Part shown: one piece after another, positions 3,737-64,000 of the stretch
How the letters are laid out: each line of letters begins with the position of its first letter
How positions within the stretch are numbered: position 1 is the first letter of the stretch
DNA from: Propionimicrobium lymphophilum DSM 4903
GTDB lineage: Bacteria > Actinomycetota > Actinomycetes > Propionibacteriales > Propionibacteriaceae
Length of the DNA: 64,000 nt
Direction: 5' to 3'
Assembly (NCBI RefSeq): GCF_000423485.1
Contig: NZ_AUIB01000001.1
Coordinates: 434,001-498,000, forward strand
Translations under genes and position numbers: made by a program
Notes under the pieces: generated by a model
The model's input: the letters and a program-made list of their open reading frames with translations, nothing else
What the model was told of the DNA's origin: nothing
Database searches by the model: none

Positions 3737-5977
3737 TTGCAGGTTAAGGCTGACGTGGCTAGCCACGCACCAAATTATCGACCCGAGCTGCACGGTCTAC
3801 GAGCCACGGCCATCCTCATGGTGGCGGCTTATCACATCTGGATTGGGCGAGTAAGCGGCGGCATCGACGTCTTCCTCTTAATCTCTAGCTTCTTGCTGAT
3901 GCAGACGTTTATGCGTCGCATTGATAACAGCCGGCACATCGAGTTGGTGGGGTATTGGCTTAAGGCCTTTAAACGGCTCTTACCGCCCGCTATCGTCACG
4001 ATCTTGTTCACCGTGATAGCGGTACAAGCGTTCTTTCCCGCCGAACGAATTAGGGGAGTGCTGCGCGAGGCGGTTGCTTCGATTTGTTACTACGAAAACT
4101 GGTTCCTAGCGGTTAACAGCTTCGACTATTACGCGGATAAATCGGTCGTCAGCCCTCTCCAACATTTCTGGTCGTTATCGATCCAGGGCCAGATCTTTTT
4201 ACTCTGGCCAGCCATCATCGCCGTTTGCTGGTTTTTGGGCAGAAAGATCAACTTCAGCGTTCGTCAGATCCTGACGCTAGTTTTTGGAGTTATCTTCGGT
4301 GGCTCCCTTATCTGGTCGATCATTCAAACCAACACCAATCAGTCCTACGCATATTTCAGCACCTGGACTCGGCTGTGGGAGTTTGCGCTCGGTGCGCTCC
4401 TGGCGCTGATATTGCCGGGTGTCGAACGGTTCTTCGGCTACGGCCCCGGAAAAGAATTCACCGGTTCTAGGAGCGCCCTTAACGTTCGGGTCGGGCTTGG
4501 CTGGTTCGGGCTGATAGCTATGCTCCTGTGTGGCGTTTTGGTCGACGTCCAGGGGATGTTCCCTGGCTATGTCGCGCTATGGCCGACGGGCGCTGCGGTG
4601 CTCGTCCTGATTGCGGGCAACACAGGTGTTTGGTATTCGGCAGACAGGATCCTTTCGAGCCGCCCACTCAAATTTTTGGGTGATATTTCTTACGCGCTCT
4701 ATCTTGCGCACTGGCCGGTTCTGATCACCACGCTTCAACTCACCGGTTCGAGCCAGCTCAACATCCCGCAGGGATTCGTTGTCCTCGCTGTGTCGATCGC
4801 GTTCGCGACCGTGCTGACCAAATACCTCGACGCGCCGATCAGGTATTCCGACTGGGCCGCAAAGCGACACAGGAATAGCCTCGCGATAATTCTCGCGTCC
4901 CTGCTCGTCGGCCTGGTCCCGGTGATCTCCTATCAGACGATCATCCAGAAGCGGTTAGAGAAGATCTCGGCCGTCGTCAGTGTGGATAATCCTGGCGCTC
5001 TAGTTCTTAGCGAAGATTTTCAGGACTATTCGAGCAAGGACAAGCCCATCAAGCCGTTGCGTGAGCAAATGGAGGACGAGTGGGCAGCAATCGATGGCGT
5101 TCAATGCGACGGCGAATTCCGCCCCGACGACGAAACTCTCGCCGATGGGTGCCGGGTGGGGTACAACGACAGGAATAAGGTGGCGATTGTAACCGGCAAC
5201 TCTCGCGTCGAACAGTATCTGCCTTTTATCGAGCCGGCGCTCAAGAAGAACGGCTGGACTATCGTTCAAGCCCTACGCGGTGGCTGCTCCTTCATTAGCC
5301 CAGACGAAGAAAGCTACCAGCGATACAAGATTTTGCGCGGCGAGACTCGAGCCTCCAGCGATTCCTCTGAGACATTTAGCGAATCTGTCGGCGTGGTTGA
5401 ATCGCCGGTCAGCGATACCTCTAATGGGCCTAGTTGCTTTGAATGGTCAAAAGCGGTGGACGAATACATAGAAAAGATCAATCCCGATCTAGTGATTGCT
5501 GCTTCCACATATGTTCCGAATCCTGGCGACCAGAGCGAGGAGATAGTGCCCGGTTTCGACAAAATCGTCGAAAAGTACACCAGCCGCGGCATCCAAATTT
5601 TAGGGATCCGCGACGAGCCTAGACTCAAACAGACACCGTTCGAGTGCATGGATCCGATCGTCGAAAACGGCCTCAAAGATCTCGACGAAAAAACGGCCTA
5701 CGAAATTGCTGCGAAAGTTTGCACGCAGCCGATGGGTGAGATCTACAGCAGCCAAGATCCGGCTCAGGCGCTCACCAACTTCGAGCGTCAGCCCGGAAAG
5801 CTCTACCTGTTCGACCCGACACCGTGGATATGCCCCGATGGGGAATGCCCGCTAATCATCGGCAACCTTTTCGTCTACATGGATTCTTACCACATGACCT
5901 CGGCGTACATGCGTTCGATGTATCCGCTAGTGGAGGACAAACTCGACAAAATTCTGATTTCGGCCGCCGGAGAATAA
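3737..5977 (+). CDS. OatA-like membrane acyltransferase with SGNH domain
   Basis: The 746-residue protein has an acyltransferase-3 domain (about 12-400) with roughly ten membrane segments, starting YRPELHGLRATAILMV, the family N-terminus carrying the catalytic histidine region. It is followed by an extracytoplasmic SGNH-hydrolase-like domain (about 450-746). Such proteins O-acetylate peptidoglycan or cell-surface glycans. In the SGNH part the usual GDS nucleophile block reads TGNSR (near residue 487), and a DxxH block (DSYH) lies near the C-terminus. The start is TTG with AAGGGTGA 7 bases upstream. It is monocistronic between the tRNAs and thrS. The acceptor is not predictable. Confidence 0.85.
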   Translation: MQVKADVASHAPNYRPELHGLRATAILMVAAYHIWIGRVSGGIDVFLLISSFLLMQTFMRRIDNSRHIELVGYWLKAFKRLLPPAIVTILFTVIAVQAFFPAERIRGVLREAVASICYYENWFLAVNSFDYYADKSVVSPLQHFWSLSIQGQIFLLWPAIIAVCWFLGRKINFSVRQILTLVFGVIFGGSLIWSIIQTNTNQSYAYFSTWTRLWEFALGALLALILPGVERFFGYGPGKEFTGSRSALNVRVGLGWFGLIAMLLCGVLVDVQGMFPGYVALWPTGAAVLVLIAGNTGVWYSADRILSSRPLKFLGDISYALYLAHWPVLITTLQLTGSSQLNIPQGFVVLAVSIAFATVLTKYLDAPIRYSDWAAKRHRNSLAIILASLLVGLVPVISYQTIIQKRLEKISAVVSVDNPGALVLSEDFQDYSSKDKPIKPLREQMEDEWAAIDGVQCDGEFRPDDETLADGCRVGYNDRNKVAIVTGNSRVEQYLPFIEPALKKNGWTIVQALRGGCSFISPDEESYQRYKILRGETRASSDSSETFSESVGVVESPVSDTSNGPSCFEWSKAVDEYIEKINPDLVIAASTYVPNPGDQSEEIVPGFDKIVEKYTSRGIQILGIRDEPRLKQTPFECMDPIVENGLKDLDEKTAYEIAAKVCTQPMGEIYSSQDPAQALTNFERQPGKLYLFDPTPWICPDGECPLIIGNLFVYMDSYHMTSAYMRSMYPLVEDKLDKILISAAGE

Positions 5978-8097: not shown

Positions 8098-8653
8098 CCA
8101 GGAGATAGAAGACGAGATTCGCTTCGCGGGCGTGCCCGATTCAATGCAGCGGCTATGGACGCCGCACCGAATCGCCTACATTCACGGCGAGGACAAACCT
8201 GCGGATGCGAGCAGCGTCGAATGCCCGTTTTGCCGCGCGCCTAAAAAGGACGATGAGGAATCCCTGATCGTCCACCGCGGTGAAACTGCATTCGTCGTCA
8301 TGAACCTCTATCCATACAACACTGGTCACCTTTTGGTGTGCCCATATCGCCACGTCGCCAGCTACATTGACCTCACCGAGGAAGAAACCCGCGAGGTGGC
8401 GGAGCTGACCCAACAGGCGATCCGTACAATCACGAGGGTTTCCAAACCGCAGGGCTTTAACCTGGGCATGAACCAAGGCAACGTTGCGGGCGCGGGTATT
8501 GCTGCGCACCTCCATCAGCACGTCGTGCCCAGGTGGCTTGGCGATGCTAATTTCCTGCCGATAATCGCACGGACTAAAGCCGTTCCTGAATTATTAAGCA
8601 AGACCCGCGAAATGCTCGCCAATGCGTGGGCGGATTCTCAGAAAGGTCAGTAA
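8090..8653 (+). CDS. HIT-family diadenosine tetraphosphate phosphorylase-like protein
   Basis: A 187-residue HIT protein with the histidine triad HLHQHVV (about residue 148), plus NTGHLLV and a CPFC pair near the N-terminus. The mycobacterial homologue in the same position (Rv2613c) splits Ap4A by phosphorolysis, so that is the likely reaction. Ap4A is a side product of aminoacyl-tRNA synthetases, which gives sense to the coupling with thrS through the 8-base overlap. It shares its TAATG stop/start with the next gene. Confidence 0.88.
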
Positions 8654-9276
8654 TGCTCGAACACATAAGGGGATACTGGACCAAGCTGATCACCCCCGTG
8701 GCCAAGATGTTGATGAAACTTGGCATCACCCCGGACATGACAACTTGGGTAGGTGCCGCGGTCTCGATCGCGACGTCGCTGATCTTCTTTCCGAACGGAT
8801 GGCTGTGGCAGGGGGCGCTCGTTGTCACCGTGTTCGTCTTAGCGGATTCTTTGGACGGCACGATGGCTCGGTTGACCAATCAGGCGTCGAAGTGGGGGGC
8901 ATTCTTGGACTCCACACTAGATCGGATCACGGACGGTTTCGTCTTCGGCAGTCTAGCGATTTACTACGCCAGCACCGGCGAAGACCTGACCTGGTTTGCG
9001 ATTGGCATATTCGCCCTGATCTTCGGTCAGGTCACCTCTTACTCGAAAGCTCGCGGGGAATCGTTGGGCTACGTGGTTAAGGGTGGCCTAGCCGGCCGAG
9101 CCGACCGTTTATTGATCGGCATGTTGGGCGCGTTCTTGACGGGTATTGGGGTCGAGTGGGCGCTGCCCGCCGCCTTCGTAGTTTTGCTCGTGCTCGGCAT
9201 CATCACCGTTGGTCAGCGCATGTGGATCGTTAAACGCGCATACAACGCGGAGGCTTCCGGGCGGAACGGACAATAG
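8653..9276 (+). CDS. pgsA: CDP-alcohol phosphatidyltransferase, phosphatidylinositol-phosphate synthase
   Basis: A 207-residue membrane enzyme with the CDP-alcohol motif D-x2-DG-x2-AR-x8-G-x3-D-x3-D (ADSLDGTMAR ... GAFLDSTLDR, about residues 68-95) and about six membrane segments. In actinobacteria the member in this locus makes phosphatidylinositol phosphate from CDP-diacylglycerol and inositol-3-phosphate, the lipid anchor for mannosides. ATG 8653 overlaps the preceding TAA by one base; the longer reading (+9 codons) would run into the HIT gene. The location directly before patA and pimA supports PI rather than PG synthesis. Confidence 0.9.
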   Translation: MLEHIRGYWTKLITPVAKMLMKLGITPDMTTWVGAAVSIATSLIFFPNGWLWQGALVVTVFVLADSLDGTMARLTNQASKWGAFLDSTLDRITDGFVFGSLAIYYASTGEDLTWFAIGIFALIFGQVTSYSKARGESLGYVVKGGLAGRADRLLIGMLGAFLTGIGVEWALPAAFVVLLVLGIITVGQRMWIVKRAYNAEASGRNGQ

Positions 9277-10130
9277 TGTTTGACAAGCTGACCGCGTTAA
9301 AGCTTGCCGCGCACGTGCCCGCTTTCGTCTGGAAACCGCTGGGAGCGGCTGCCGCTGCCGTACTGGTAGCTCGTCGCCCCAAACCGATTCGCCAGTGGCA
9401 ACTCAACTACGAAGTTGTTTGTGGGGCTGCGCCAACCGCTAGCCAGACTCGGGCTGGGATGCGGTCGTGGCTTAGAAACACGATCGGTTCCCTCCAATTG
9501 GGGAAGTGGAACACGGACAAAATTAATCGGTTGGTTTACGTCGCTCCCGTTGACGCGCGGCGACTGCGCCGCCACAGGGCAGAAACGGGCCTGATTCTTG
9601 CCCTTCCGCACATGGGGTCTTGGGATATGGCAGGTGCGTGGGCGTGCCAAAATGGTCTGCCTGTCACCTCAGTAGCTGAAAAACTGCCAGCTGGACAGTT
9701 CGAGTATTTCAGCGCGATCCGCGAAAAACTCGGCTTCAAAATCTTTAGCCACAAGACATCAGGCCTGATTCCTAAGCTCTGCCAGGAAATAAACGAGGGC
9801 AGAGTAGTGGCGCTCGTGGCAGATCGGGATTTCAGCAGGCGAGGCGTCGAGGTGTCTTGGCCTGCGGCCAACAAAACCTACGACCTGACGATGCCTCCCG
9901 GATGCGCTCTGATTGCTCAGCGCACGGGCGCCGTCGTGGTTCCGGTTGCGCCTTGGTTCGACGGAAAAATAATGCGAATCCACATTGGGCAAGCAATTGA
10001 GGTGCCCGAGGGCGTTGACGAGGTAGCGTACACAACGCAAGCCATGGCCAATTATTTTGCCGAACAGATTGCTGCGCACTGCCGCGACTGGCATATGCTG
10101 CAGCGTTTTTTCCCAGGAGTTAGACCGTGA
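9276..10130 (+). CDS. patA: phosphatidylinositol mannoside acyltransferase
   Basis: A 284-residue lysophospholipid-type acyltransferase of the LpxL/HtrB superfamily with the HxxxxD catalytic motif (LPHMGSWDMAG near residue 110) and a second block around DRDFS. In mycobacteria the gene in this position (Rv2611c) adds palmitate to the mannose of PIM on the cytoplasmic membrane face. The GTG start overlaps the pgsA stop by one base, and the end overlaps pimA by 4 bases. Function rests on motif plus synteny. Confidence 0.88.
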   Translation: MFDKLTALKLAAHVPAFVWKPLGAAAAAVLVARRPKPIRQWQLNYEVVCGAAPTASQTRAGMRSWLRNTIGSLQLGKWNTDKINRLVYVAPVDARRLRRHRAETGLILALPHMGSWDMAGAWACQNGLPVTSVAEKLPAGQFEYFSAIREKLGFKIFSHKTSGLIPKLCQEINEGRVVALVADRDFSRRGVEVSWPAANKTYDLTMPPGCALIAQRTGAVVVPVAPWFDGKIMRIHIGQAIEVPEGVDEVAYTTQAMANYFAEQIAAHCRDWHMLQRFFPGVRP

Positions 10131-11275
10131 ATCCAAGCGATATCAAGCGTGTCGGGATCGTTTGCCCGTATTCCTTCGTTCGTCCCGGTGGCGTCCAAAA
10201 CCACGTACTGGGTATGGCCGGTTGGCTGAAGAAACAGGGTTACACCGTCGGCATTCTCGCCCCGGGCTTCCCCGAGCAAGAATTACTGGATCTTTACGGA
10301 GTTGACGAGGCCGACTTCACTTCGGCGGGCCGAACGGTCCCCATCAAAATTAATGGTTCTGTCGCCAGGGTGAACTTTAGTCCTAGGGCAGCGATGGCCG
10401 CGTATCGCTGGCTAAAGAAGGGCCAGTGGGACGTCGTGCACGTGCACGAGCCGATCACGCCGACGCTGTCTCTGTTGACGCTTTGGCTCGCCGACGCGCC
10501 GGTTACTGGCACATTCCACAGCGCAAGCCCGATATACAAGGCGCTTCGCGCTTTTAACCAGATGCTGCCCAAAAGCATCAGCAGGCTTAATTCCGCGATC
10601 GCCGTTTCCTCCCTCGCAGCAGAGGTGGCGAACGCGCACACCGGAATCGAACCCGTGGTCATCGGTAACGGGCTGGAAATTGATGACTACACGCTCGCTG
10701 CCACAGAAGGCGAGTGGCGGGGTGGCGACAGTCCACTGATCACTTTCCTTGGCCGTTACACGGAGCCCCGGAAGGGCTTTCAGGTGCTGACCGCAGCGCT
10801 GCCTTTGATTCGTGAGAAGTATCCAGACTTGCGGTGCGTGGTGATGGGCCACGGACCGGTAACGAGCATCCCGGGAGTCGAATTCGTTGGTGGAGTCAGC
10901 GACGCTGAACGCAATGAGTGGTTGATGCGTTCCGACGCGTACATCGCCCCGCAGACTGGCAGGGAGAGTTTCGGCATCGTGCTGATCGAGGCTTTAGCGT
11001 GTGGCGCGCCGGTGGTAGCTAGCGACCTGCGAGCGTTCATCGACGTTCTATCCGACGAAGATGGTATCTGCGGGCACGTCTTTCAGGCTGGTAACCCGCA
11101 AGCTCTCGCTGACGCCGTATCGGCAAGCCTCGAAGAGCCTCGGGACCTGCGTCTCGAGCGTGGACGCAAGGTGGCGGCAAGATATGATTGGTCTGCGATC
11201 GGCCCGCAGGTCATCTCGATGTATGAGCTGGCAAAAAGCAGAAGAGAACGGCTGCATCCAAAGAAGCCCAATTAG
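10127..11275 (+). CDS. pimA: phosphatidylinositol alpha-mannosyltransferase
   Basis: A 382-residue GT4 glycosyltransferase. The N-terminal Rossmann half has PYSFVRPGGVQNHV (acceptor side), and the C-terminal half has GRYTEPRKGF and the nucleotide-sugar-binding E-x7-E segment (ESFGIVLIEALACG). PimA transfers the first mannose from GDP-mannose to PI on the inner membrane face. The GTG start overlaps patA (GTGA). Together with pgsA and patA it forms the PIM-initiating block. Confidence 0.92.
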   Translation: MNPSDIKRVGIVCPYSFVRPGGVQNHVLGMAGWLKKQGYTVGILAPGFPEQELLDLYGVDEADFTSAGRTVPIKINGSVARVNFSPRAAMAAYRWLKKGQWDVVHVHEPITPTLSLLTLWLADAPVTGTFHSASPIYKALRAFNQMLPKSISRLNSAIAVSSLAAEVANAHTGIEPVVIGNGLEIDDYTLAATEGEWRGGDSPLITFLGRYTEPRKGFQVLTAALPLIREKYPDLRCVVMGHGPVTSIPGVEFVGGVSDAERNEWLMRSDAYIAPQTGRESFGIVLIEALACGAPVVASDLRAFIDVLSDEDGICGHVFQAGNPQALADAVSASLEEPRDLRLERGRKVAARYDWSAIGPQVISMYELAKSRRERLHPKKPN

Positions 11276-58139: not shown

Positions 58140-59771
58140 ATGTCTGAGCAAAAAGCTATTTTGCCCGATGGGCATGTTCCTGAAAGCAGTGAGATTTCAG
58201 GTTTAGTGCAGCGAATCAAGGCCGCGGGTAAGCACCGTAGCCCGCTGGTTCTCGCAGCCGTTGCAACTATGGGCTCCCTGCTGTTTGGTTACGACACCGG
58301 TGTCATCGCCGGCGCATTGCCCTACATGTATCTCCCAGAGGCAGCAGGTGGCCTTCAACTTGATGCCTTTACTGAGGGCCTAGTTACGGCGACCCTGGCT
58401 CTTGGCGCCGCTTTCGGCGCTCTGCTTGTCGGACTGATCAACGACAAGATCGGCCGTCGCCGCTCCATTATGCTGCTGGCTGCGTTATTTCTGGTCGGCA
58501 CATTAGGCTGCACGTTCTCGGTCAACGTCTTCATGATGTACCCGTTCAGGTTTATCCTGGGCATGGCTGTTGGTGGCGCCTCTTCGACGGTTCCGCTATA
58601 CCTGTCTGAGACTGCTCCGAAGAAGATACGTGGTCCGCTGGTTGCGGTTGACCAGTTCATGATCGTTTTCGGTCAGTTCATCGCATTCGTTATGAACGCC
58701 GCTATCGCTCACATGAACAGTGCACCACAGGTTGTTGTAGAAAACGACCCCTCCGGAAAGTTCCAGAAGGGCGACGTTGTTCTTTGGGACATTCTGAAGT
58801 CCATGCCAGACGTAACCGTAATGGAGGGCAACGGCCACGCATGGCGCTGGATGCTCGTTCTTGCCACTATCCCGGCTATTGCGCTGTGGATCGGCATGCG
58901 CATGATGCCTGAGTCGCCGCGTTGGTACGTAGCTAACAAGCGTTACTACGAGGCCATCTCCTCGATGAAGCAAATTCGCACCGAGAAGAACGACGTCTCC
59001 GGTGAGGTAACGGAGATGATAGAGCTCGAGCGTAAGCACGATCTGGAATCTAAGGAAGCGTGGACGCTGGGCAGAGGCCTTAGAACACGTTGGACAAGAC
59101 GGATCATCATGATCGGTGTCGTCCTGGGCATCATGGACCAGTTGACCGGTATTAACACCGCTATGTGGTACATGCCGAAGATTCTGCACGCTGCAGGCTT
59201 CTCGACCGCTGATGCGATTACACTGAACGTTCTGACCGGTTTCATCTCCGCTGTTGGTTCCGGCATTGGCCTGATCATTGTCGCGAAGTTCATGCGTCGC
59301 AAGGTAGGTATGTTCCAGGAGGCTGGCATTGCTGTTTCGCTTCTAGTCCTGGCTGTAGTGTTCCACTTCGGCGTTGAGCCGCACATGGGCCCCGACGGAA
59401 ACATCTCCGAAGCCGTTCCGGTATTCATTCCTTGGCTTGTCGTCGCAATCGTTTCGGTGTTCGTGTTTATCAAGCAGTCCTGCACCGTGACCTGGGTTAT
59501 CTTGGCTGAGATTTTTCCGAACAAGATTCGTGGTGCAGCGCAAGGTGTTTCGGTATTCTTCCTGTGGCTGTTCAACGCAATCGTTGTTTTCACCTTCCCG
59601 CTCCTCATTAATGGGCTTGGTGGTGCGAAGACCTACCTGATCTTCGGTCTGATAAACGTCGGTTCCTTCCTTTTCTACTGGCTGGTAGTTCCTGAAACCA
59701 AGATCTACTCGCTGGAAGAAATTGAAGAGAGGCTGCTCAAGAGGTACTCTCGCTTAGGCGATGAGACCTAA
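58140..59771 (+). CDS. iolT: MFS sugar/inositol:proton symporter (IolT type)
   Basis: A 543-residue sugar-porter MFS protein with about twelve membrane segments. LFGYDTGVIAGALPYM in segment 1, DKIGRRRSIM after segment 2, PESPRW before the central loop, the segment 7 DQLTGINTAMWY and a C-terminal VPETK are family signatures. The longest match in mind is actinobacterial IolT myo-inositol carriers; a hexose carrier is possible. An unusually long loop of about 45 residues follows segment 6. GGGAGGA lies 6 bases before the ATG. The gene is intact while the enzymes nearby are not. Confidence 0.85.
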   Translation: MSEQKAILPDGHVPESSEISGLVQRIKAAGKHRSPLVLAAVATMGSLLFGYDTGVIAGALPYMYLPEAAGGLQLDAFTEGLVTATLALGAAFGALLVGLINDKIGRRRSIMLLAALFLVGTLGCTFSVNVFMMYPFRFILGMAVGGASSTVPLYLSETAPKKIRGPLVAVDQFMIVFGQFIAFVMNAAIAHMNSAPQVVVENDPSGKFQKGDVVLWDILKSMPDVTVMEGNGHAWRWMLVLATIPAIALWIGMRMMPESPRWYVANKRYYEAISSMKQIRTEKNDVSGEVTEMIELERKHDLESKEAWTLGRGLRTRWTRRIIMIGVVLGIMDQLTGINTAMWYMPKILHAAGFSTADAITLNVLTGFISAVGSGIGLIIVAKFMRRKVGMFQEAGIAVSLLVLAVVFHFGVEPHMGPDGNISEAVPVFIPWLVVAIVSVFVFIKQSCTVTWVILAEIFPNKIRGAAQGVSVFFLWLFNAIVVFTFPLLINGLGGAKTYLIFGLINVGSFLFYWLVVPETKIYSLEEIEERLLKRYSRLGDET

Positions 59772-59784
59772 ATAAATACGCAAT

Positions 59785-59821
59785 AAGAAACCCCGCAGGA
59801 TAACCTGCGGGATTTCTTTTG
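59785..59821. terminator. bidirectional terminator, transporter / gntR
   Basis: A 15-bp stem with one mismatch (59785-59799 with 59804-59818), loop ATAA, followed by TTTT; convergent genes on both sides. Confidence 0.85.
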
Positions 59822-59827
59822 TCAGAA

Positions 59828-60595
59828 CTAATTGGTTAGCGGAACGGTTACGGTGTACTGCGCTGCGTCGTAGCAGTGGTGAGCGAATTCGACGATCCGT
59901 CCGTCCGTTTCATATGAGGTGCGACGCATGGTGACAACCGCAGAACCCGGTTCGAGGTGCAGAAGTTTAGCTTCGCGCTCGGAAGCGTTCTTAGCGCCAA
60001 CCTGTTGGTACCCAGAAGAGAGCTGAACGCCGTTTGCTGCCAGGCATCTGTAGAAACCGTCTCGATCCAGATCTGTCAGAGACGGTGCGATGTCTGATGG
60101 AACGTAGTTCTGCATCAATGCGAGGCGAGAATTATCGAGCCAGCGCAGCCGCTCGAAGAAGACGATTTCGTCGCCGGTATCACAAGCTAGGTTTTCGGCG
60201 ATCTCTTCGTTAGCGAAGAGGACCTCGTATCTGAGCACCTCTGTGCGAGTGGTGTGACCAGCGTCGATGAAATCCTCGGTAAGGCTGGACAATTTGATCT
60301 GTCTCTGAAACGGGCTGGGGGAGACGCGCGTGCCAACGCCTCTGCGCCTGGACAGCAGGCCTTTCGAGACGAGATCTTGCATAGCGCGCCTAACGGTCGG
60401 TCTGGATATTTCTAAACGTTTGGCAAGCGAAACTTCGTCCTCGATTATCTGTCCTGGGGGAAGTTCGCCAGAAGCTATCATGTTTTCCAGTGGGGTAGAA
60501 ATCTGCTGGTGTAGAGCAGTTGAGGAGTCGCGGTCAATCTTAATGTCTATGACGAACGGCTCATCAAGACTGGCCTTGTTCTTTTCTTCTGTCAT
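59828..60595 (-). CDS. GntR-family regulator, HutC subfamily (UTRA domain)
   Basis: A 255-residue regulator: winged helix at about 30-100 (EVSLAKRLEISRPTVRRAMQDLV) and a UTRA ligand-binding domain (about 115-250) with LALMQNYVPSDIA and VVTMRRTSYETDGR. ATG 60595 with AGGAGC 5 bases upstream is preferred to a frame start 51 codons earlier. A perfect HutC-type operator lies about 190 bases upstream, between this gene and the aldolase remnant. It probably controlled inositol uptake and breakdown. Confidence 0.88.
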   Translation of the reverse strand: MTEEKNKASLDEPFVIDIKIDRDSSTALHQQISTPLENMIASGELPPGQIIEDEVSLAKRLEISRPTVRRAMQDLVSKGLLSRRRGVGTRVSPSPFQRQIKLSSLTEDFIDAGHTTRTEVLRYEVLFANEEIAENLACDTGDEIVFFERLRWLDNSRLALMQNYVPSDIAPSLTDLDRDGFYRCLAANGVQLSSGYQQVGAKNASEREAKLLHLEPGSAVVTMRRTSYETDGRIVEFAHHCYDAAQYTVTVPLTN

Positions 60596-60961
60596 TTTGC
60601 TCCTGCACGGCGAGAACTCACTGCTGTTGTCCCCGTCAACGTTGGCACGAGACTCAAAGTCGCACCCCAGCGCCCCCATTAGCGCGGTATGGCGGGAATC
60701 GGTTAAGTCAAATGTCAAGTCCATATGATACTTGAATAATGGTTTCAAAGGTAAGTAACAAATGAAACATGTGGAGAACTGTCTATATACGACGCCTTAA
60801 GTGCTAAATAGTCGCTTATAACGCTTTGCAAAGATCTGATCTAGATTTGGAATGTAAGCATATAGCCATGACTGGACCACTTCTATGGTCAGTAATGAAA
60901 ACGTTTGCAAAAGAGTGACGAGTTCAAGCAAGGATCTGCTTGGAACTGAAAAAATAAAACC
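60596..60961. other. divergent regulatory region, gntR / aldolase remnant
   Basis: About 366 bases. It holds the HutC-type operator (60781-60790), an inverted repeat ACTGGACCA / TGGTCAGT at 60871-60892 and an AACGTTTGC (60900-60908) like LacI-family half sites. No gene is seen apart from the possible N-terminal extension of gntR. Confidence 0.5.
60779..60792. promoter_or_regulatory. HutC-type GntR operator
   Basis: CTGTCTATATACGA matches the HutC-subfamily consensus NyGTMTATAKACNy at every position, with core GTCTATATAC. It lies in the divergent gap of the HutC-type regulator gene, which supports autoregulation and control of the former catabolic genes. Confidence 0.65.
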
Positions 60962-61474
60962 GTGAGCTACGTCGATCGCGTGAAGATCGAAAGCGAAAAA
61001 ATGGTAGCTATCAGGGAAATCCCCGAGATTAGGATGTACGAGCTTGAGCGAATCTCGCAGGCTCTAACTTCTCGCAAACCAGGAAAGCTCTTTAAGGGCC
61101 AGAAGCTCATGGTCGTCGCATGCGATCACCCGCCTCGTGGCGCATTGGCCGCCGGCAGCATCGTCAACGTTCTGACTCCGGACGAGGTTATCAAGTCGAT
61201 GGCGATTGCTAGTGGACTTGGTCGGACCACCTCCTACGCCTGGCTTAGATTGCCTTGCGCGGATGAGATGGAGCGCGTCATGGATACCGCTACGCAACCG
61301 TTGCTGATCCTCGGTGTCGATGTTCCTAAAGATTGCGACGCGACTCTAGAAAAGTGGCAGGTTGTCCTTGCTCAGCCGAACGTGTTCGGTCTTGTTATTG
61401 GAAGTTCACTGCAGTTCCCGGGCAGCGGTGCATCGCCAAGGCAGAAGATGAAACAGCGGGGCTATCTTGAGTGA
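60962..61474 (+). pseudogene. Cgl0159-family (beta/alpha)8 aldolase-like gene with internal deletion
   Basis: The frame is open for 170 codons from GTG, but the family is about 290 residues. The N-terminal MVVACDHPPRGALAAG strand (about 49-64) runs directly into the C-terminal part NVLTPDEVIKSMAIASGLG, PLLILGVDVP and GLVIGSSLQFPG. About 130 residues of the barrel between them are missing without a frame break. A barrel cut this way should not fold as an enzyme. Family members occur in actinobacterial inositol clusters (iol operons). The stop overlaps the TTG start of the iolB remnant. Confidence 0.75.
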
Positions 61475-61556
61475 CAACGAAAAGTATCTAATTCCTGCAG
61501 GATCGATCACTAAGGATAATTTCCAGACGATCATTAGTGCCCAGCGTGCTGGCTGA
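61467..61556 (+). pseudogene. iolB: 5-deoxy-glucuronate isomerase (IolB), N-terminal fragment
   Basis: From TTG 61467 the frame reads SDNEKYLIPAGSITKDNF and on to SAQRAG, then TGA. YLPAGS-type starts followed by an AGW are typical of IolB, and the TGA stands where Trp (TGG) is expected. Nothing of the remaining 250 residues follows; the frame continues into the dehydrogenase fragment. The match is short, so the family call is moderate. Confidence 0.55.
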
Positions 61557-61796
61557 GAAGCAGAAGTAGAGATCAACCGCACCGTCTGCCGCAGCCAGTT
61601 CGTCCTTGGCTCTTACGGCGCTCGCACCCACGAGGACCTGCCCAAGGTCATCGAGATGGTAGCTGCCGGTGCGATCAACTAACGCGAGATCGTCACCAAG
61701 CACTTCTCGCTAGCTGACGCTGGTAAGGGCTACGACGAACTTGCCGCTGGAAAGATCCAGGGCCATGCAGTCGTAGATATGTCCCTTCCCTTCTAA
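61557..61796 (+). pseudogene. zinc-type alcohol dehydrogenase, C-terminal fragment
   Basis: In the same frame as the iolB remnant: EVEINRTVCRSQFVLGSYGAR, then DLPKVIEMVAAGAIN, an in-frame TAA, REIVTKHFSLADAGKGYDEL and AGKIQGHAVVDMSLPF-stop. This is the last 80 residues of a medium-chain dehydrogenase; the catalytic domain and most of the NAD-binding fold are gone. Sequence similarity remains high, so the loss is recent. Confidence 0.75.
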
Positions 61797-61856: not shown

Positions 61857-64000
61857 CTAGTTGATGCGAATGTCGTGCCGGTTAGTCAAAGCGCCGTAAC
61901 GGCTTTCGTCTGCGGTCAGCACGATTATCTGTGCCATCTCGCTGGCCCTAGCGAGTATCGCAGCCATTCGAGTCTGACGATCGGGATCGGTGTGACCGAG
62001 CTGGTCATCGAGGAAAATAGGCATTCCGTCCGTCTCGTCGACGAGCATTGCCGCAGCGAGCTTGACCAGTATCAGGAGCTGTTCTTTTGCTCCGCTGGAT
62101 AACTGATCGAAATCTATGGTCACCCCATCCAGCACCCTCGCCTCGACGGTTAGGTCATCCGCGAGCCTGACTGCGAAGGTATCGTCGCGATAGATAGTTC
62201 TGCCCAGTTGATCGATTTTATCTGTGAACGGCTTTCTGTACTTTTCCTGGGCCTGTGCCTGATGCCTGGAAAGTGTGTCGTAGAGCAGCAGGGCAGCATT
62301 TGCTTTAACTTCGATTCTCTCGTAAGCCTCTGTTGCTATTTGTTGGGCAGTTAGGGCCTCATCAAGTTCCTCCTGCCTGACGTCTGCGGAAAGCGCGCTT
62401 AGCGCGCTGGATAGTTTTATGGCTTCCGTCTGCCAAGATGCGAGAGTTTTGTCGGCGTTTTCAGCCTTGTTCTCAAGTTCCTTCAGGCGCTGTTCGTGTC
62501 CCTCGGCGTCTAGAGCAACCAGCTTCTGTTCGACCTCTGCCAGTGATGCCGTTCGCTTGTCGAGTTCCACCTGGGCTTCCGATACTGCCTTTTCAAGCGT
62601 TTCATCGTCGTTTTCTTCACGATCTTTTGCGAGCTGTGCTAACAACTGCTCATAACTTTTTTCGAGCTTTTCAACTTCCCAGCTCAGCCTGCTCTCCTCA
62701 GTCACTTCGTCGCCGAACGACGCCCTTAGCTGTTCTAACTTCACCAGGTGCTCTTCTCTGGTAGCGGCAGCCTTCTTCTGCTCATCCCGCGCGTCGTTGA
62801 GGTCGTTTAGAGCCGAATCCAAGCTCTCTGGAAGTGTGTCGGCGTTTTCTGAAATCTCGGCAGCGGTGTCGACGGATTTAACGGCTTTTCTTAGGTCCTC
62901 GATGCTTCGTCCGTTAAGCAGCAGAGCAAGACGCTGATTGACCATGTCGCGCTCGCGTTCGTAGTCGCTCAGCTTATGTGCCATCTCCTTCGCTTCTTCA
63001 ACGGATTCGCACCCAGCCTCGTGTAAAGCCTGCGCAAGCTTTTCGGATGCATTTTGCTCCGCCCTGCGAAAATCAGAGACTGCTGGCGCGCTGAGCTCGA
63101 AGCGCCAGGTATCTGGAACCTCGAGGGTCATGTCCGAGGTGACGTTTTCGCTAAATCCGTCTTCAACGTCGACCTTCTCGCCGTTTATCAGCAGTTCTCG
63201 CTGGGCAGTGAGCGCCTTCACGCTAATTCGCGCTGAGCTTGCCACTAGCTTCGCCCTCGCCGAATCGAGCTCTCGCTGGAAAGAATCGATGTTGGCTAGA
63301 ACCCTTCTCGAATTAGACGCGTTTAGCTTTCCAGAGTTCAGCAGATAATCCAGCTCTGTAAGTCGTTCGTCTTGCACCTCGACCTGTGAAAGTAACGACT
63401 CGTCTACAAGCGCCTTCTTTCTTGCTTCGAGAGAAGCAACGGCTAGCTGAGCCTGTTCGAGGCGATCGTTGGCTTTCCTGGATTTCTCGGAGAGTTCCTT
63501 AAACAGGGCTTCTGCGTCTGCAAGGTCGTTTCGGTAGGCAGAAATCTTAGGAGTCAGTTCCGCAAGATTAGATTGTGCCTCCCCCAGTTCTGCCTCGGTT
63601 TTTTTTACATCCGAGATTCTTTTGTTTCGTGCTTCCAGGTTGTTCTTGGCCATGGTCAGGACAAGCTCGGCGCTATTTTTCTCCCTACTAGCCTTATCAA
63701 GCTCGTCTTTGGCTGACTTGATCTCGGCATCGGCCTTCTTAATCTCTTCGAGCTCCCGATTTACCATGGCGGATAGCTCGTTGTATCTGAAGATATTCGT
63801 CCTCGCCTGATTCAGGCGTGTCTCTTTGCCGTCGATTACTCGTACCGCAGCCTTCGCCGCATCGACTCGGGAATCTGCCTTCTGAAGAGTATCTTTCGCC
63901 GCGCTCAAATCACCCCTAGGTCTTCCAGCAGCGGTGAAGTACGCGTCCCTATGAGCCTTGGCTTTCGCCACCAAACTCTGGTCTGAGCTGTCTACCGCTC
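61857..64000 (-). CDS. SMC/YhaN-like coiled-coil ATPase (partial)
   Basis: The C-terminal 714 or so residues of a large protein that continues past the window end; no stop occurs up to base 64000. Long coiled coils (about 20-280 and 370-590 from the first visible start) flank a middle globular part, and the C-terminus has the ABC signature LSSGAKEQLLILVKL and Walker B MPIFLDDQLGHTDPDR with D-loop. Walker A must lie upstream. Such ATPases of the YhaN/SbcC type act on DNA ends, often with an SbcD-like nuclease encoded next door. The second acidic residue of Walker B is Asp rather than Glu. Confidence 0.85.
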   Translation of the reverse strand, partial: AVDSSDQSLVAKAKAHRDAYFTAAGRPRGDLSAAKDTLQKADSRVDAAKAAVRVIDGKETRLNQARTNIFRYNELSAMVNRELEEIKKADAEIKSAKDELDKASREKNSAELVLTMAKNNLEARNKRISDVKKTEAELGEAQSNLAELTPKISAYRNDLADAEALFKELSEKSRKANDRLEQAQLAVASLEARKKALVDESLLSQVEVQDERLTELDYLLNSGKLNASNSRRVLANIDSFQRELDSARAKLVASSARISVKALTAQRELLINGEKVDVEDGFSENVTSDMTLEVPDTWRFELSAPAVSDFRRAEQNASEKLAQALHEAGCESVEEAKEMAHKLSDYERERDMVNQRLALLLNGRSIEDLRKAVKSVDTAAEISENADTLPESLDSALNDLNDARDEQKKAAATREEHLVKLEQLRASFGDEVTEESRLSWEVEKLEKSYEQLLAQLAKDREENDDETLEKAVSEAQVELDKRTASLAEVEQKLVALDAEGHEQRLKELENKAENADKTLASWQTEAIKLSSALSALSADVRQEELDEALTAQQIATEAYERIEVKANAALLLYDTLSRHQAQAQEKYRKPFTDKIDQLGRTIYRDDTFAVRLADDLTVEARVLDGVTIDFDQLSSGAKEQLLILVKLAAAMLVDETDGMPIFLDDQLGHTDPDRQTRMAAILARASEMAQIIVLTADESRYGALTNRHDIRIN

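Follow-up and report, generated by a model that had tools for sequence, protein, structure and literature searches.

The core inositol catabolic genes are iolB, iolC, iolD and iolE (PMC9430895), and in Actinomycetota the iol operon of Winkia neuii (L001) and iol1 of C. glutamicum offer points of comparison. The two C. glutamicum carriers, IolT1 and IolT2, take several inositols and also glucose, fructose and xylose (PMC9603128). For the related genus Cutibacterium there are measurements of phosphatidylinositol (PI) lipids (PMC11237483), and residues implicated in inositol phosphate binding are described for M. tuberculosis PgsA1 (PMC6506517). Dependence on imported inositol is described for Pneumocystis, an inositol auxotroph reliant on the transporter Itr1 (PMC5156303). 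Here, we describe a locus in a window of 64,000 nucleotides (the whole stretch of DNA analysed) from Propionimicrobium lymphophilum DSM 4903, with the following features:

58140..59771, + strand: iolT-type MFS sugar porter, 543 aa, intact open frame
59792..59811, + strand: hairpin resembling a terminator (8 pairs, 7 GC, T-rich tail), between iolT and the regulator gene convergent with it
59828..60595, − strand: GntR-family regulator with UTRA domain (HutC subfamily), 255 aa, intact
60962..61474, + strand: remnant of a Cgl0159-type aldolase gene, with an in-frame deletion of about 127 residues at 61157-61162 and a frameshift near 61420-61431
61467..61559, + strand: iolB remnant, about 30 N-terminal codons, TGA at 61554-61556
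61560..61796, + strand: zinc alcohol dehydrogenase (ADH) remnant, C-terminal approximately 78 codons, TAA at 61680-61682

The locus shares with the Winkia and C. glutamicum operons the kind of carrier, a GntR-type regulator, the Cgl0159 aldolase and iolB, but differs in that its enzyme genes are deleted or broken and only the carrier and regulator are intact. The Winkia operon is complete and holds orthologues of the carrier, regulator, aldolase and iolB. Gene order matches intact iol clusters: an intact member of the family (L123) has gntR(−) followed by iolC, Cgl0159, iolB, iolD, iolA, ..., ADH, an order shared in part by L122 and L124 (in L124 from iolC on), and a MAG contig (L009) carries iolT(+) gntR(−) iolC(+). 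We count the dehydrogenase as part of the iol cluster on neighbourhood, because relatives hold a zinc ADH near iol genes (L007, L016, L017, L020, L022, L023, L122-L124 and L127), and the family clusters L122-L124 also include it. Gene content and order identify the locus as what is left of an actinobacterial myo-inositol catabolic operon whose carrier and regulator are intact, and it has the gene arrangement of intact relatives after at least three deletions.

Alignment to intact relatives, at 55-68% identity, bears out the initial annotation in that all three enzyme pieces are shortened or spliced. The aldolase piece matches PF22649 (Cgl0159) within 60962-61474 (E 3.1e-33) at profile positions 149-241 only, and against seven full-length relatives it aligns in two parts, N-terminal and C-terminal, separated by a gap of some 127 residues. 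Its native C-terminus (IAKAEDETAGLS*) sits in another frame after the frameshift near 61420-61431. The segment 61467-61559 aligns to the IolB N-terminus, with the conserved Trp of RAGWE turned into TGA, and is fused in frame to the zinc ADH C-terminus that starts at 61560 (68% identity to L020), in which the TAA at 61680 replaces a Tyr of the relatives. Upstream of the aldolase remnant, nothing was recognisable as the tail of iolC. Set against intact clusters, the locus lacks iolC, iolD, iolA and most of iolB, which agrees with the proposal that several deletions removed most iol genes. Adjoining the remnants, positions 61857-63998 encode a large SMC/Rad50-like coiled-coil protein that runs past the end of the window; Pfam gives no match to it, and its NCBIfam matches are all below cut-off.

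The carrier and the regulator have the full open frames first ascribed to them, with domains over cut-off. The carrier matches Sugar_tr in a profile search (E 1.5e-92) and exceeds the TIGR00879 cut-off, which places it as an IolT-like member of the MFS sugar porter family. Its nearest relative is iolT of the complete Winkia neuii operon (71% identity), followed by Brachybacterium carriers (67-69%) that also lie within iol clusters, and orthologues are found inside iol operons in L001-L005, L007, L016, L017, L020, L022, L023, L026 and L122-L127. The putative substrate of the window carrier is myo-inositol. A search for a second close IolT across the genome found none, the next best match being 34%. 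In the tree, the carrier clusters with those of Winkia and Brachybacterium (five-row clade, support 100/98) and not with most Propionibacteriaceae carriers, and this grouping suggests that the carrier, perhaps with the whole operon, moved between actinobacterial families or underwent differential loss. The hairpin downstream of iolT is assigned by position, as such hairpins are no commoner than chance in the region, and promoter-like matches there are not clearly above chance either.

The longest frame of the regulator gene spans 59828-60748(−), with the ATG at 60595 as the likelier start. An N-terminal GntR helix-turn-helix domain (PF00392) and a C-terminal UTRA domain (PF07702), both over cut-off, place the product in the GntR/HutC subfamily. 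However, the match to HutC proper, the histidine utilisation repressor, reaches 117.9 bits against a TIGR02018 cut-off of 220, so the protein is HutC-like in architecture only, and the original label of a HutC-type regulator holds to that extent. A common operator upstream of iolT and gntR was sought across relatives and gave no convincing palindrome.

The genome comprises 2.04 Mb in 26 contigs with a completeness rating of 100%. By the state of three core genes the locus is no functional inositol catabolic cluster: iolB is truncated, iolC is absent from it and the genome has no iolD. The search for ino1 proposed in the initial annotation likewise found no match to PF01658 in this genome rated complete, using a profile that does detect the gene in C. 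glutamicum as well as in 47 of the 197 genomes of the family sample. PF07994, tried as a second test for ino1, is uninformative, since it misses even C. glutamicum. Three IMPase-family proteins are encoded in the genome. The window also contains genes of PI lipid synthesis:

8626..9276, + strand: phosphatidylinositol phosphate synthase (pgsA/PIPS), NF045883 239 bits (cut-off 170)
9276..10130, + strand: phosphatidylinositol mannoside acyltransferase, NF005919 225 bits (cut-off 209)
10127..11275, + strand: glycosyltransferase, probably PimA by position, no family over cut-off

Aligned to solved homologues, the PI-phosphate synthase keeps the inositol-phosphate binding residues (motifs DR, SYSKAR, GRADR and QR). 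Together with the NF045883 match this supports its assignment, and the product of 8626..9276 is a predicted consumer of inositol phosphate. Hence, of the two genes named earlier, pgsA is confirmed as PIPS, and pimA rests on its position and glycosyltransferase class. Given an encoded PI-phosphate synthase and no detectable ino1, the cell would depend on outside inositol, and we infer that it is probably an inositol auxotroph.

The combination is not confined to this genome. We drew from 197 family genomes the 75 that are at least 95% complete, at most 5% contaminated and have a PI-phosphate synthase over cut-off. PF01658 finds ino1 in 26 of these 75 and leaves it unmatched in 49, of which 38 have iolD. 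The 49 take in all members of genera g4 and g14 among the 75. By these profile matches, it is common for Propionibacteriaceae to have a PI-phosphate synthase and lack ino1, usually alongside inositol catabolism.

We propose, with moderate confidence, that the intact carrier and regulator of this decayed iol operon now serve inositol import for lipid synthesis. Comparison with intact operons shows that deletions took iolC, the central part of the Cgl0159 aldolase, and the stretch from early iolB via iolD and iolA to the late part of the zinc dehydrogenase gene, and that point lesions additionally struck the remnants. The cell would rely on external inositol, imported by the carrier, with the regulator tuning carrier expression to an inositol-related ligand. 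The PI-phosphate synthase takes inositol phosphate, and imported inositol would therefore first need phosphorylation by a putative kinase, after which the synthase could build PI and PI-mannosides. The earlier suggestion that the carrier feeds PI synthesis thus gains from the encoded PIPS and the missing ino1, but it had left out the phosphorylation step, for which no kinase could be named, and it meets a caveat in another genome of the family (below). Pneumocystis with Itr1 would work alike, although it is a fungus with eukaryotic PI synthesis and without an operon remnant. In evolutionary terms the locus would represent ordinary decay with a plausible re-use of the carrier.

That other genome, G032 (genus g27), has iolT, gntR and ino1 and no iolD. 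Its iolT-gntR pair (L121:10326-13005) is divergent and lies between fba and ilvD. It resembles the window in that a carrier and a GntR/UTRA regulator are kept in a genome without iolD, but it differs in being divergent instead of convergent, in its place between fba and ilvD, in the absence of visible remnants and in the presence of ino1. Because G032 keeps the pair together with ino1, its retention there can be explained without lipid supply, and keeping iolT-gntR alone is no proof of such a role. The window carrier could instead owe its retention to a broad role in sugar import (glucose, fructose or xylose, for example), with a purely historical link to inositol. The retention of iolT in G032 despite ino1 would fit such a role, as would the hexose and xylose transport by IolT1 and IolT2 of C. 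glutamicum (PMC9603128) and the few other porters of the carrier's family in this genome. Nevertheless, we consider it rather unlikely, given that another sugar porter adjoins a fructokinase-like gene on contig C4, that the inositol operon's GntR regulator is retained with the carrier and that the absence of ino1 gives inositol import a value of its own.

Less likely still is that the decay is recent, and that carrier and regulator have simply escaped disabling mutation so far. The remnants do align at 55-68% identity with few small lesions, and of 108 columns that are otherwise invariant the carrier has changed at two, with V97 and C448 in place of the Gly of the compared orthologues. However, all three disabling small lesions (two stops and one frameshift) fall within the 276 remnant codons and none within the 798 kept codons, a split with a conditional probability of 0.017 under equal decay, or 0.066 from the stops alone. 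Moreover, the branch of the window carrier (0.30) is not clearly longer than that of its Winkia sister (0.27), and by this measure the carrier is shown to be still evolving at an ordinary rate. Lesion distribution and branch length favour retention, with a small lesion count and a single species of the genus. The last alternative, an inositol pathway completed by genes in other places with this locus as a redundant copy, is highly improbable. Nothing speaks in its favour, and whole-genome searches found no iolD (best matches are thiamine-enzyme paralogues at 26-28%) and with it no second, complete iol operon; the presence of such an operon was what the initial annotation had named as fatal to its reading.

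If the reading of import for lipid synthesis is right, this bacterium would be a natural inositol auxotroph that obtains a lipid head group from its environment, and the locus would show a nutrient pathway reduced to import and put to use in biosynthesis. More tentatively, many PI-making Propionibacteriaceae without ino1 may live on imported inositol by way of a putative inositol kinase, with this genome as a reduced case whose iol carrier and regulator persist solely for lipid supply. Since the PI-phosphate synthase requires inositol phosphate, the family would be a place to seek the missing inositol kinase. Among the PfkB proteins of this genome, none could be named as such. The candidate at C10:24253-25104, which neighbours a PIG-V type mannosyltransferase gene, does not follow the loss of ino1: the proteins nearest to it (51-57%) come from g17, a genus with ino1, and its matches include no genome of genera g4 or g14. 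Other larger PfkB proteins resemble ribokinase or are fructokinase-like or KDG-kinase-like, all below family cut-offs. Positions 3737-5977 of the window encode a 746-aa protein whose SucT acetyltransferase match (279 bits) is far under the cut-off of 1275. On contig C10 (L118:1501-3388, G000:C10), a PfkB-type kinase gene and a PIG-V type mannosyltransferase gene overlap convergently.
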